From the NCBI GenBank assembly GCA_027490155.1, contig JAIXYP010000029.1, forward strand, positions 1-42,998: 42,998 nt of DNA, written 5' to 3'. The stretch comes from Cytophagaceae bacterium (lineage in GTDB: Bacteria; Bacteroidota; Bacteroidia; Cytophagales; Flexibacteraceae). Below the pieces are notes generated by a model. It saw nothing but the letters and a program-made list of their open reading frames with translations, searched no databases and was not told where the DNA came from. Every line of letters begins with the position of its first letter. Position 1 is the first letter of the stretch. This document shows, one piece after another, positions 2,663 through 25,600 of this stretch. The position numbers were made by a program, and so were the translations under genes.

Positions 2663-2855
2663 CAAAAAGCCCACCGAACACGATGGGCTTTTTGTGACTA
2701 TGTTTTACAGGTGTATGAAAATCGTTTACGGTTTTCAGCTATTGATACCGCAGGCGTCAAAAAGGTAACCCAGGGGTAACAAAAAAATTTGGTTTTTTTC
2801 GCAAAAGGCCTCTGGCATGCTCCTATGGCTGTTTTTTGCCGTAAAAATTTCTCAA
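2663..2855 (-). ncRNA. Putative small RNA, family copy A, ending in an intrinsic terminator
   Basis: Read on the minus strand this ends in a 10-bp hairpin (stem 2664-2673 with 2684-2693) whose distal arm gives a T5 tract. Upstream of the hairpin, in minus-strand order, are GAGCATGCCAGAGG (2822-2809), GGTTACC (2770-2764), GGTATC (2749-2744) and ACCTGT (2712-2707). The same ordered blocks and spacing occur in copy B (3156-3344) and more weakly in copy C (16863-17030). A and B also share the 5' part up to a TTGAGAAATTTTTA-like stretch. A short frame (MPEAFCEKNQIF..., 27 codons) is present in A but closed after 5 codons in B, so a conserved peptide is unlikely. No exact TAnnTTTG promoter is visible. 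The class is unknown; a 5' leader or attenuator is an alternative. Confidence 0.35.
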
Positions 2856-3155: not shown

Positions 3156-3344
3156 CAAAAAAGCCTCCGGAGACCAGAGGCTTGTTTGGTGTTATATAAA
3201 CAGGTGAATGAAATACAATTTCAGTACTGGTTTATACGCCTAGTGGCCAATAGGTAACCAGCGTTGGCAAAAAAATTTCAGCACCATGCCTAAAAGACCT
3301 CTGGCATGCTCTTTAGGCAGTTTTTATCCCTAAAAAGTTTTCAA
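3156..3344 (-). ncRNA. Putative small RNA, family copy B, ending in an intrinsic terminator
   Basis: Minus-strand order: a TTGAAAACTTTTTA-like start (3344-3331), a hairpin around GAGCATGCCAGAGG (arms TGCCTAAAGA and TCTTTTAGGCA), GGTTACC (3259-3253), ACCTGT (3205-3200), then a stem of AAGCCTC (3161-3167) with GAGGCTT (3177-3183) followed on the minus strand by T6. It parallels copy A throughout (189 against 193 nt). On the plus strand the same hairpin lies 45 nt beyond the decayed tRNA and could once have served it too. RNA identity is inferred from conserved blocks plus the terminator; no family is recognised. Confidence 0.35.
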
Positions 3345-3525
3345 GACAGGCTAGATGGATATTGGTTGGCCACGGTTTGGGCGCCGAATTTTGCCCTCGT
3401 CTGGATGTTGCTTTTCGGTAAGTCGGGTCGGTGTGTAATGGTTGGGTCAGTGGCATTGTTGCCAGATACCCGCTCTTAGCCCCTGATCCTGAGGTGGTGG
3501 GGCTAGGTTTTTGCAGCTAGGGTTG

Positions 3526-4838: not shown

Positions 4839-6206
4839 TCATTCGTTGGCCATGACCTTGCAATGCTGGTGATCCTTGTCGATCGAGATATAGACCTCAG
4901 ACCGTGTTTTCTCAAACCATTTGCTGAGGGCTTCGGCTTTCTTGCGGCTCAGCGCAGCATGCTGGATCTTCTGGTAGTCATCCTTAAGGCTAGCCTCGTG
5001 TGGGACCGTTTTGCTTTTGTAGTACAAAATACGCATCCCTTCCTTGCCGTCATCCGACCGATAGACTAGCGGTGCGCTGATGGTGCCAACCTTCATGGTA
5101 TCGATCGTGAAGAAGACCACCGGGTCTAGGTTTTCGAGGGCAACACGGCTGGTATTGGTGGTATTTTCCATGAAGAATCCACCTGCGTTTTTCGTCTGTT
5201 GGTCTTCGCTATACTCCTTGGCGGCCTTATCAAACTTGATGCTATCAGCCAGGATACGAGTCCTGAGGCTGTCCAGATACACACGTGGCTCTTCTAGACT
5301 TAGGTTGCTACCGTTTGGTTTGATCAGGATGTGGCGCGAGTTGTACTCCTCACCACGGCGGTCCAGCAACTCGATGATGTGGTAGCCAAACTGGGTCTCG
5401 ACAGGCTCGGATACTTCGGCCTTTTTGAGGCGTAGGGCTGTGGCCTCATATTCTGGTGCCATCACGCCACGACCCCAATAGCCAAGTGCTCCACCCGCTG
5501 TGGCCGAGCCCGGATCGTCGCTATAGATTTTAGCTAGGTCCTCAAACGACTCACCATTCATGATCCGCTCACGCAGTTTCATGATCTTCTCGCGGGCCTC
5601 TTGTTTACGTTTTTTGCTCAGCTTCGCAAACCGGACAATCTGGCCCACCTCAACCTCTTTGCTGAAGTAGGGCAGGCTGTCTTTCGGGATGTCTTCAAAA
5701 AATTTCCGCACCTCACCTGGGGTCACTTTCATGTCCTTGGTGATGTTGTCTTGCATCTTCTGGATCACCATTTGGTCCCGCACCTGTTTCCGCAGCTCGG
5801 ACTTAAACTGGTCCACCGTTTTGTTGTAGTAGGCCTCCAGCTTTTCCTTGCTGCCGATGCTCGCGATCATGTAGTTCATCCGGCGGGTTAGGTTATCATC
5901 CACCATTTTGCTCTCTACGGTGACAGAGTCCAGCTCCGCTTTGGCCAATAGCAACTTGTTGATAACCAAGGTCTCAAGCACCTTGCACCTGAGGTCAATG
6001 CCTGGGCTAGTACGCTCGCCTTGCTGGACAGCCTGATAATAGGCCATCTCGAGGTCACTAAGCAAGATGATCTGGTTATCCACCTTGCCGATGATTTTAT
6101 CTAGGACCTGGCTGTTGGCTGAAGGCTGAGCCATGGCGGGCTGGGTGGCCATCATGGTCAGGCAAGCGATTAAAACAAACAGAATCCGGATGCGCAATAA
6201 TGTCAT
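4839..6206 (-). CDS. Periplasmic peptidyl-prolyl isomerase (PpiC/SurA-type, two parvulin domains)
   Basis: 455 residues. A signal peptide runs to about residue 26 (cut after AMA). A SurA-like N-terminal helical chaperone domain follows (about 30-180), then a well-preserved parvulin domain (about 183-282, with FEDLAKIYSDDPGSATAGG, LGYWGRG and TQFGYHIIELLDR) and a second, more diverged one (about 288-398, starting SRHILIKP and with NAGGFF). The family helps outer-membrane and exported proteins fold in the periplasm, consistent with the many surface proteins here. Its start is divergent from uvrC across 226 bp. A TATCTTTG -7 box lies only 5 nt before ATG, so the mRNA may be leaderless. Confidence 0.9.
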   Translation of the reverse strand: MTLLRIRILFVLIACLTMMATQPAMAQPSANSQVLDKIIGKVDNQIILLSDLEMAYYQAVQQGERTSPGIDLRCKVLETLVINKLLLAKAELDSVTVESKMVDDNLTRRMNYMIASIGSKEKLEAYYNKTVDQFKSELRKQVRDQMVIQKMQDNITKDMKVTPGEVRKFFEDIPKDSLPYFSKEVEVGQIVRFAKLSKKRKQEAREKIMKLRERIMNGESFEDLAKIYSDDPGSATAGGALGYWGRGVMAPEYEATALRLKKAEVSEPVETQFGYHIIELLDRRGEEYNSRHILIKPNGSNLSLEEPRVYLDSLRTRILADSIKFDKAAKEYSEDQQTKNAGGFFMENTTNTSRVALENLDPVVFFTIDTMKVGTISAPLVYRSDDGKEGMRILYYKSKTVPHEASLKDDYQKIQHAALSRKKAEALSKWFEKTRSEVYISIDKDHQHCKVMANE

Positions 6207-16862: not shown

Positions 16863-17030
16863 ATGAAAAAAGCTAGCGGAAACCGCTAGCTCTTTTGCCC
16901 AATGGTTAACAGGTCTATGATTTAAACTTTCTGAGTTCAAGTATAGATACTGGTGGGAGGGGGATTGGTAACCGAGTGGGGGTGGATATTTTGATTGGTG
17001 ACATGTCCTGCAGCAATAAAACCCACCAAA
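16863..17030 (-). ncRNA. Putative small RNA, family copy C, ending in an intrinsic terminator
   Basis: In minus-strand order: AGGACATGTCA (compare GAGCATGCCA in A and B), GGTTACC (16973-16967), GTATCTATA, then ACCTGT (16914-16909), 58 nt from GGTTACC against 57 and 53 in A and B. It ends in a perfect nine-bp stem (16871-16879 with 16883-16891, loop AAA in plus) followed by T6. A TTG-N17-TACGATTTG near 17030 could be its promoter with a one-base-long -7 spacer. It sits wholly between the divergent ABC and desaturase genes and upstream of the ABC promoter. 5' end is estimated. Confidence 0.35.
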
Positions 17031-22600: not shown

Positions 22601-25600
22601 CTGCGTTGAGGGCATAGTTACTAGCATTAGTACCAGTGAGGCTAAGGCCAGTGATCGTGACCGTTTTCGGGTTGCCAACATTGGCATCTGCAAAGGCACC
22701 AACTGGTGTGCCGGTGACAGCGACAGTTCCTGCATCTCCTGCAATGATACCAGACAAAGTAGCCGTTCCTGTGATAGCAGCGACGGTTGTGGCATCAAAC
22801 ACGCGGCTTGTGGCAGCAAGACCTGTGACACCTAGTGGTGCAGTAGTGATATTGGCCGTAAGGTTCAGCGCATTGAGGCTATAGTTGCCAGCGGCTGATC
22901 CTGTAAGGCTATAGCCTGTAACAGCAAGTGTTTTGCTGGTGCCGACATTGGCATCAGCAAAGGATGCTGTTCCTGTACCAGTGAGGTTTACGTTGCCAAG
23001 GTCAGCTGTTTCAACACCTGAAAGAGCGGCTGTACCAGTGAAGGCACCTGCTGCACTGCGGTTATAGGCACGTGAGGTACCGGTCAGACCTGTGATGCTG
23101 AGGGCCTTGGTCGTGATTTCAGCTGATAAGGTAGGCTGAGTTAGGCTATAGTTGTAGGCCCGAGTCCCCGTGAGGGCATATCCTGTCACACCAACTGAAA
23201 TGCCATTTGCTACAGCTGCTGAAGTAAAAGTGGCTATAGGGCTGCCGCCGACGGCGACATTGGCGACGTCTCCTGCCAGAACACCAACAATGGTTGCAGT
23301 GCCAGTGATGCTACCAGTTGTAGTGGCATCATAAATTTTGTTGGTAGCACTTATGCTAGTGAGCGTAACTGGCTTAGCTGTAATGACCAAGGTTTGATCG
23401 ACATTCGGAGCGGCATTATAGGTGCCATCTCCAGCTTGGCTAGCCGTGATGGTGGTGCTGCCGACGCCAATAACTGTAACATTGGTGCCGCTAACGGTGG
23501 CCACAGCTGGGTTTGATGAGGCGAACGTTACTGCTAAGGCCGAGGTGGCACTGGCACTAATGTTGAAATCTGCACTGCCATAGACAACAGGCGAAAGACT
23601 ACCAAAGGTGATTGTCTGGGCCGTTTTGTTGTTGACCGTTAAAGTTCCATCAACATAGGTGATGGCATAATTGCTGGTCGTAATGCCAACAGGCGCACTT
23701 GGTGTGATGGTATAGGTGCCGGCGGCATCAGCCGGGGCAGTTCCACCACTAGCTGTTAACGTGACTGTTGTGATATTCTCGCCAGAGGCAAGGCCTGTAC
23801 TGCTAAATAGCGTTTGGCCAGCACCAATCGTCGTGAGGGTGGTGCCAGCGGGTTTGGCTTGGTTATCCGCTGTGATCGTGAGTGGCCGAGGGTCAATAGT
23901 CAAGACACCATTAACGTAGTTGAACGAATAGTTGGCAGCCACGCCACCGGCTGGAACCACAGCATAAGTGCTGGGCACAGAGGTTGATGTGGCCGAAGTT
24001 GTAGCGGTGGGTACCGATGTTAGGGCCCCAACACCCTCGCCATTAACGAAGCCAGAATAGCCCACTGTCAAGGCTGGGTTGTTATCCCCATAGTTGCGGG
24101 TATGGCTGCTGCCAGTAACCGTAAGTGTTGCACGTGTTATGGTGAGGGCAGCAGTGTTGTACGTAACTGTATAGTTATTGATGTTGAACGTACCACCCGT
24201 CGCTGCACTCGGGGTGATGGTATAGGTGCCACTCACTGGAGCACCAGCTGTTGCACCACTATTGTTAACAGCCAAGGTTACCGTTCCTACTGTTTCACTA
24301 TTCTGCAAACCAGAGCTGCTAAAAAGGGTCTGACCTGTACCAACGGTAGTTAGGGTTGAGCCATAGACTTTGGACTGGGCCGAGGCAGTTATAGTTAGTG
24401 GCGCTTTGGAAACTGTTAGTGCGCCAGCATTGTAGGTGACCGTATAGTTATTGATATTGAAGGTGCCACCAGTTGCACCACTTGGTATCAGCGTATATCC
24501 ACCAACACCATCTGTTGCTGCCGTACCGCTAAAGGCTGACAAGGTGACTGAGCCAATCGTTTCCGGACTGACCAGACCAGCGCTAGTGAACAATGTTTGG
24601 CCTGCGCCTACCGTTGTGAGTGTCTGACCGTAAGTTTTAGACTGAGCGCTAGCGGTAACTGTCAGGGCTTTTTTGCCAACAGTATAAACAAGTGTCTCGG
24701 TATCGGTACCACTACCGTTGGTGGCTTTGATTTCGATGTTATAGGTACCAACAGCTGTGGTAGAGGCTACAGAAATAGTAGGCGAGCTAAACGTGAAGCC
24801 TGTTGGCAGGGCACCACCACCTACTGCAGTAGCTGTGTAAGAGGTTGGCGATCCCGAAGCCGTTATGGTATAGGTGCTGGCCGTCCCATAAGTATTACTG
24901 GCAGTCAAGGCCGAAGAAATGACTGGGGTCGCGGCAGTAGCAGATGCCGATAGGGTAAAGTCATCAATAGCTACGCCATTATCAGAGCCAGTCGCATCTG
25001 TAGTTGACCATGAAAATCCGAATGTGGCCCCATTGGCAATACTTACTGTAATTTCAGCGCTTCTGGCGGTGGTTGCGACAGTGCCATTTGTGCCTGATGC
25101 CACACCTGCAAAATCTAAAGCATCGATCGTTGTATTGCCTGCCAATGCGCCGGTTCCCGATAGGTTCCAACCTGATGTATTTACAAACCTCCACTGTTCG
25201 TAATTCCAACCAACCGTAAGAGAGGTTATCGTGCTACCCGAGTTGTTTGTGAATGATACGGAATAGGTATGTACGACTGATCCAGAGCGCAAAGCACCTG
25301 CAGAATAATCAGGATTCACGCCAAAACCATAAAAACCACCCGTTGAACCAGACCCAGTACTTCGGCCCTGATAGGCTGCGCTAGTACTCGTTAGGACCCA
25401 TCCAGACCCTATTGAACTACCCGCAGTTGTAGAGGCAGTTGGGTTATAGCTGTTGAAGTTGTTTCCGTAACTATATGGCAGCCCACCCGACGGAATTGAG
25501 ATCTGCCCAAAGCTAGTACCAACCAACAAGAGCTGGAGGATAATGACCAATGGCACCGTCCAGAGCGCTCTGGCACTGAAGCGGGCCATAGGCGAGGCTT

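Follow-up and report, generated by a model that had tools for sequence, protein, structure and literature searches.

We have found three copies (A, B and C) of a predicted small RNA element in 42,998 nucleotides of the genome of a Cytophagaceae bacterium (contig JAIXYP010000029.1, positions 1 to 42,998, the window from here on). The element is real, and it reads as a small RNA of about 70–75 nt made up of the segment CATnnACCTGT and an intrinsic terminator. Judging from sequence comparison, the three copies are probably genes for trans-acting sRNAs, each with its own ECF-type promoter, that would together form the noncoding arm of the regulon of an autoregulated ECF sigma factor.

All three copies lie on the minus strand between long frames of the window (Table 1), and in each, read 5' to 3', GGTTACC is followed after 15 or 16 nt by GTAT and after about 30 nt more by CATnnACCTGT; beyond a short stretch come a GC-rich hairpin and a T-run. 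A previous sequence-only reading had described GGTTACC, GTAT, ACCTGT and the hairpin with its T-run in this order in three minus-strand intergenic stretches, with 57, 53 and 58 nt from the end of GGTTACC to the end of ACCTGT and terminator stems that differ in sequence yet pair, and we found all of this as described. Other parts of that description had to be corrected. The extents proposed were too long, about half of each stretch being promoter and upstream DNA, and the GGTTACC and GTATC/GTATA blocks, taken there as RNA, read instead as an ECF-type promoter that is common to a sigma factor gene. The CATG(C/T)CA block, supposedly in all three stretches, is present only in A and B, so we rejected it as a part of the element; it is missing also from the counterpart of C in a genome of the same genus.

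Table 1. Positions in the window of the predicted promoters, sRNAs and terminators of the three copies.
Feature	Position	Strand	Remarks
Copy A, -35 box GGTTACC	2764..2770	(-)	identical box ahead of ECF sigma genes
Copy A, -10 box GTAT (GTATnnA)	2745..2748	(-)	
Copy A, predicted sRNA	2664..2737	(-)	5' hairpin, CATACACCTGT, terminator; start assumed 7 nt past the -10 box
Copy A, seed CATACACCTGT	2707..2717	(-)	
Copy A, intrinsic terminator	2664..2688	(-)	stem GCCCA/TGGGC, T5
Copy B, -35 box GGTTACC	3253..3259	(-)	
Copy B, -10 box GTAT	3234..3237	(-)	
Copy B, predicted sRNA	3157..3226	(-)	short 5' hairpin, CATTCACCTGT, terminator; start assumed
Copy B, intrinsic terminator	3157..3183	(-)	stem GCCTC/GAGGC
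Copy C, -35 box GGTTACC	16967..16973	(-)	
Copy C, -10 box GTAT	16947..16950	(-)	
Copy C, predicted sRNA	16866..16939	(-)	5' hairpin, CATAGACCTGT, terminator; start assumed; counterpart L018 in a same-genus genome
Copy C, intrinsic terminator	16866..16890	(-)	stem AGCTAGCGG/CCGCTAGCT; GCTAGCGG/CCGCTAGC core; T6

The pattern GGTTACC-N40-70-ACCTGT appears four times in the window against 0.04 expected. The fourth match (24276-24338, plus strand) was taken as chance because GTAT is missing at the right place. When GTAT was included (GGTTACC-N12-18-GTAT-N20-42-ACCTGT), the genome of 3,986,888 bases gave exactly three matches, which are A, B and C, and none to the reversed pattern. Copies A and B alone also have in common, in their upstream DNA, a 53-nt block with CATGCCAGAGG (at about 2790-2856 and 3279-3345, 81% identity), which we suggest is either the remnant of a tandem duplication or an extra regulatory site. 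Copy C gave no blastn match with A or B.

Distribution of the family

A search for the same three-part pattern in 98 genomes of the order (the window's own and its relatives) gave 28 matches, spread over 22 genomes; the reversed pattern gave 11. Six of the 28, without the ATTCAT/terminator context, were dropped by eye (L006, L014, L021, L025, L027 and L028), and the remaining 22 have much else in common besides the pattern, such as ATTCATACACCTGTTTAA, with a terminator in most. A sequence-only model, R1, was built with 21 of these 22 rows, the window copies included. Its matches at E <= 5e-6 were found in 32 of the 98 genomes, 13 of which had supplied no row to the model while 19 had. When 395 genomes, evenly sampled from the phylum, were searched under stricter filters, the strong R1 matches were the window's own only. 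The best match outside the order (E 4.8e-4) covered the promoter half alone, ahead of a predicted secreted lipoprotein.

A stricter pattern applied over a species-genome collection gave 56 loci, nearly all Cytophagales. The titles of 51 of them name Cytophagales or a family or genus taken as belonging to the order; the other five are titled Bacteroidia (two), Bacteroidetes (one), Rickettsiales (one, a MAG) and simply 'bacterium' (one). Membership of the order was checked for Flammeovirgaceae, Cyclobacteriaceae, Cesiribacter and Raineya, and the remaining family and genus titles among the 51 are ones that we take to be Cytophagales. From 26 of the 44 usable loci we built a second model, R2, that contains no window copy. 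Its top three matches in the window were A (E 5e-8), B (1.9e-7) and C (1.2e-3), the next having E = 1; the tool itself describes the E-values of both models as rough. The pattern that collected the R2 loci was modelled on copy A. Copy C does not match that pattern, hence its detection by R2 was not built in.

These results bear on the idea that the three copies are a chance or mobile repeat of this one genome, devoid of function. They do lie within 14 kb of each other, and A and B, with their 53 nt of common upstream DNA, look duplicated. Against this, the out-of-sample model R2 recovers all three, promoter and terminator are both kept in relatives, and a gene for a LMW-PTP is found divergently upstream at 31 of 65 loci, so we consider the repeat essentially refuted.

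The window gave in a Rfam scan, of the kind that the sequence-only reading had suggested, only two tRNAs over the gathering threshold. With Rfam 15, 20 related loci gave no gathering-threshold match at the element, and below-threshold matches were poor. The proposal of an undescribed small RNA is well supported: the element is intergenic, ends in a terminator, is conserved in many Cytophagales and has no Rfam match at gathering thresholds. A DUF805 RNA (RF03081) in one relative (L019, 290-355) is barely over the gathering score and lies far from the element. We also saw diverged members (L277 and L100 in G020, which has at least two, and L272 in G041) that keep ATTCATAAC and the terminator and have lost ACCTGT, possibly a case of seed turnover.

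Features of the RNA and its neighborhood

With the start placed, by assumption, 7 nt after the -10 box, the predicted RNA of the 65 collected members measures between 68 and 90 nt, with a median of 76. The seed is followed by a terminator in 63 of the 65, against 3 of 183 random positions. For the part that came from the 98-genome pattern, the first of these counts leans on the removal by eye of the six rows mentioned above; of the 56 unfiltered species-genome loci, 53 have a terminator, whose end lies no more than 57 nt from the seed in 52 of these. The best conserved stretch is TTATTCATACACCTGTTTAACA, of which the search pattern fixed TTCAWACACCTGT for the species-genome rows. Outside the pattern, TT follows ACCTGT in 59/65 members, TTAACA or TTGACA is found in 45/65, and CATAACAC is present in the 5' part of 40/65.

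The sequence-only reading had proposed selection on paired RNA structure, and this stands for the terminator. Elsewhere it does not: RNAalifold found no pairs over 21 aligned members, in which the stems are poorly aligned, and only 16 of the 65, A, B and C among them, have a predicted 5' hairpin (energy no higher than -1.5), so a conserved fold beyond the terminator was rejected. In the predicted folds the seed is only moderately open, with a mean unpaired probability of 0.62 and values above 0.5 in 44/65.

The short frames inside had been described as not conserved, and our analysis agrees, since an ATG frame is absent altogether from 21 of the 65 members and in the others its length scatters between 1 and 38 codons. 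In some members an ATG frame, 8-13 codons long, does span the seed, as would be expected if a small conserved peptide were encoded. Together with the frame counts, the distance from the -10 box to ACCTGT, which ranges between 32 and 47 nt and changes by amounts not divisible by three, makes a peptide extremely improbable.

The next downstream gene was on the opposite strand at 36 of the 65 loci, on the same strand at 24 and not called at 5. That downstream genes occur on either strand indicates an independent RNA gene rather than the leader family considered in the sequence-only reading. A cis-acting leader or attenuator would serve here an ABC transporter (copy C) and a DUF5122/Ig_7 protein (copy A), and the next long frame downstream of both copies is indeed on the same strand in the window, as it is in the 24 relatives. 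However, the downstream gene is on the opposite strand at the 36 loci and differs in kind, no alternative fold of the terminator was seen and the element has its own promoter. We regard the leader as largely refuted and very unlikely. The neighborhood is conserved in part: upstream there is the divergent LMW-PTP gene mentioned above (Pfam LMWPc in the one tested), and downstream an enoyl-CoA hydratase gene (one tested) was found at 11/65 loci.

The promoter and the ECF sigma factor

From its sequence, we read GGTTACC and GTAT, 15-16 nt apart, as the -35 and -10 boxes of an ECF-type promoter. In the window's genome, GGTTACC-N14-17-GTAT has 13 matches against 15 for the reversed motif. One of the 13 is located 57 nt ahead of the start of a 179-codon gene (G000:C41:122406-122942) whose product is over the Pfam cut-offs of Sigma70_r2 and Sigma70_ECF and over that of TIGR02937, i.e., an ECF sigma factor. 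The product of the gene that follows has a single apparent membrane segment, matches zf-HC2 weakly (E 0.034, below cut-off) and looks like a membrane anti-sigma factor.

Orthologues of this sigma factor (bits >= 218, at least 54% identity) were found in 50 of the 98 genomes, the window's genome having one ECF of the kind at E <= 1e-20. The motif GGTTAC-N13-19-GTAT was located within 250 nt upstream of the orthologue in 28 of 30 plus 15 of 20 cases (43/50), against 0/331 in control windows of the same loci, and most of the seven orthologues without it show by eye a variant of one or two bases. In the sRNA members the arrangement GGTTACC-N15/16-GTAT is present in all 65, the boxes being part of the search patterns and the spacing only bounded by them. 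Two more features fall outside the pattern: T makes up 77-86% of the bases at positions -14 to -11 ahead of GGTTACC, and the A of GTATnnA is found in 65/65. In the phylum sample, an orthologue at E <= 1e-45 appeared in 4 of the 395 genomes, all of this order, with few candidates per genome scored.

Taken alone, the motif shows no genome-wide excess (84 matches in 14 genomes, 89 for the reversed motif), indicating that the true sites are few. The only two in G016 are those of the sRNA and of the sigma gene. Several other motif sites, many of them picked by eye, precede genes of predicted secreted proteins or lipoproteins. A consensus GGTTACC-N15/16-GTATnnA for this ECF subgroup means that its regulon can be sought.

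Some additional occurrences were observed. The same promoter, with T-run, GGTTACCTTTT and GTATTA, was seen upstream of short genes whose predicted products are small alanine-rich lipoproteins or secreted proteins, both in members of the class that lie outside the order (L102 in G099, L103 in G185 and L110 in G450, at about 1501-1553) and in another family of the order (L280 in G013, at about 599-654), which suggests an older ECF regulon without the sRNA. In two genomes of one family (L222 in G055 and L237 in G068) the motif precedes genes for small membrane proteins (about 50-70 residues) that look alike, possibly a conserved member of the regulon. At three others (L303 in G052, L304 in G065 and L306 in G037) the motif appears on both strands of the gap upstream of an ECF gene, as if the sigma factor also drove a divergent gene.

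As to which sigma factor would read the sRNA promoter, ECF paralogues had been included as a control in which no motif was expected, yet it stands upstream of 17 of 20. This weakens the assignment to the orthologue, which comes to rest on spacing and co-occurrence. The box-to-box length was 26 nt in 31 and 27 nt in 12 of the 43 orthologue promoters, whereas in the 17 paralogue promoters it was 25 nt in 13 and 26 nt in 4. The 65 sRNA promoters have spacers of 15 nt (52) or 16 nt (13), that is 26 or 27 nt from box to box, when both search patterns, that of the 98 genomes and that of the species genomes, allowed 25.

Regarding co-occurrence, the sRNA (E <= 5e-6) was found in 30 of the 50 genomes with the orthologue and in 2 of the 48 without it, with p = 1e-9 in a genome-level test that ignores shared ancestry; by family the figures were 9/13 and 0/9 (p = 0.0017). 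The two exceptions, G007 and G058, have the sRNA and no called orthologue; both are draft genomes, and in G058 there is a truncated orthologue match at a contig edge. Of the 20 orthologue genomes without an sRNA match at this threshold, some hold weaker, recognizable or diverged copies (G026, G081, G024, G093 and G080).

One could still think that the sRNAs are real and that their promoter is read by one or more paralogous ECFs of the same subgroup, with no one-to-one pairing of sigma factor and sRNA. The 17 paralogues with the motif (about 35-45% identity to the query) favor this, as does the presence of several such ECFs in some genomes. However, the paralogue promoters are mostly one base shorter, none of the nine families without the orthologue has the sRNA, and the window's genome has its single ECF of the kind. 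We consider paralogues as readers unlikely, and the sigma factor that reads the sRNA promoter would most likely be the autoregulated ECF of the order, encoded here by the 179-codon gene.

Proposed mechanism and related systems

RybB and MicA are sigma-E-dependent sRNAs of enterobacteria that work with Hfq. The RNAs of the window resemble them in being short, terminator-ended and preceded by a promoter of ECF-sigma type, and by analogy a trans action on envelope mRNAs is expected. Unlike these Hfq-dependent sRNAs, ours belong to a genome in which Hfq does not reach the cut-off, and the likeness is one of functional class, no sequence relation having been seen. Release of the sigma factor would lead to transcription of its own operon and of the sRNAs. 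The conserved CAUnnACCUGU segment ahead of the terminator would then pair with mRNAs, as sRNAs of this class do, probably those of envelope or secreted proteins, and their translation or decay would be altered. Of this picture, comparison supports the make-up of the promoter and its identity with that of the sigma gene, the terminator, the conservation, the co-occurrence with the sigma factor and the independence of downstream genes; transcription with its start site, the reading sigma factor, base pairing, targets and signal are inferred.

There is prior evidence of comparable systems. Sigma-E-type sRNAs are known in enterobacteria (PMC1804206). In Fusobacterium nucleatum the sRNAs FoxI and FoxJ are presented as the noncoding arm of the ECF (sigma-E) response (PMC11005410), a situation similar to the one proposed here and also outside Proteobacteria. 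They differ, as described there, in belonging to another phylum, in the size of FoxJ (about 156 nt) and in having a sigma dependence and targets established by experiment, where ours are deduced. A further case is Rfp11 of Flavobacterium psychrophilum, which the relevant passages of PMC9723704 describe as a putative regulatory RNA, grouped under the ECF-type motif SM6 together with T9SS genes and an ECF/anti-sigma pair. By that description it is, like ours, a putative regulatory RNA under an ECF-type promoter in the same phylum, and the family of the window may not be the first case in the phylum of an sRNA linked to an ECF. SM6 is characterized there by a CGT box in the -10 region (PMC9723704), and R1 had no strong match outside the order. 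SigP of Porphyromonas gingivalis is a Bacteroidota ECF sigma factor that controls secretion genes (PMC4800418). Its motif as published is unlike GGTTACC-N15-16-GTAT, and this comparison of motifs gave no support to an identity of our sigma factor with SigP; the passages on SigP mention no sRNA (PMC4800418).

Among the matches listed in a search of the open-licence literature, judged by title and start of the abstract and with subscription journals outside its scope, no description of the RNA or of the promoter in Cytophagales was seen. The family is real and apparently undescribed, though its functional kind is a known one. Much of an order would carry a new sRNA family transcribed from the promoter with which an ECF sigma factor regulates its own gene. 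For sigma-E-type responses, noncoding arms have been described in Proteobacteria and Fusobacteria, and this one would belong to Cytophagales, in a genome without Hfq over the cut-off. If true, the way in which sRNAs work in the phylum and the regulon of an uncharacterized sigma factor become directly testable.

We have looked for targets in several ways. Searched as an antisense of start codons, ACAGGTnnATGA occurs in the window's genome at A, B and C and at three other sites, where by eye no clear gene starts. A search for a long conserved target with TTAAACAGGTGT in 20 genomes gave 37 places in 18 of them, in several genomes the RNA gene alone, and no recurrent 12-nt complementary site was seen. 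Pairing of the sRNA with the sigma mRNA, evaluated in 15 genomes, had a mean z of -0.14, with two single genomes at about -2.9. As to RNA chaperones, the window's genome has no RRM protein, and its best match to Hfq, at 21.5 bits against a cut-off of 27, overlaps a 277-aa frame on the other strand and is probably spurious. No target emerged from these searches. This result, the Hfq below cut-off, the only moderately open seed, the bare motif without genome-wide excess, the motif of the paralogues, the 20 orthologue genomes without a strong sRNA match and the two genomes with the RNA and no called orthologue weigh against our reading.

More tentatively, and here we are inclined to doubt, the system could be a dedicated sigma-sRNA switch, in which an ECF confined to the order would have the sRNA as its most conserved output besides its own gene. 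Cytophagales without a recognizable Hfq would then respond to an envelope signal largely by way of noncoding RNA, which in the genome of the window would have multiplied to three copies with diverging seeds. About 1.6 kb from copy B, perhaps by coincidence, the window contains a gene for a SurA/rotamase-like periplasmic chaperone (4839-6206).
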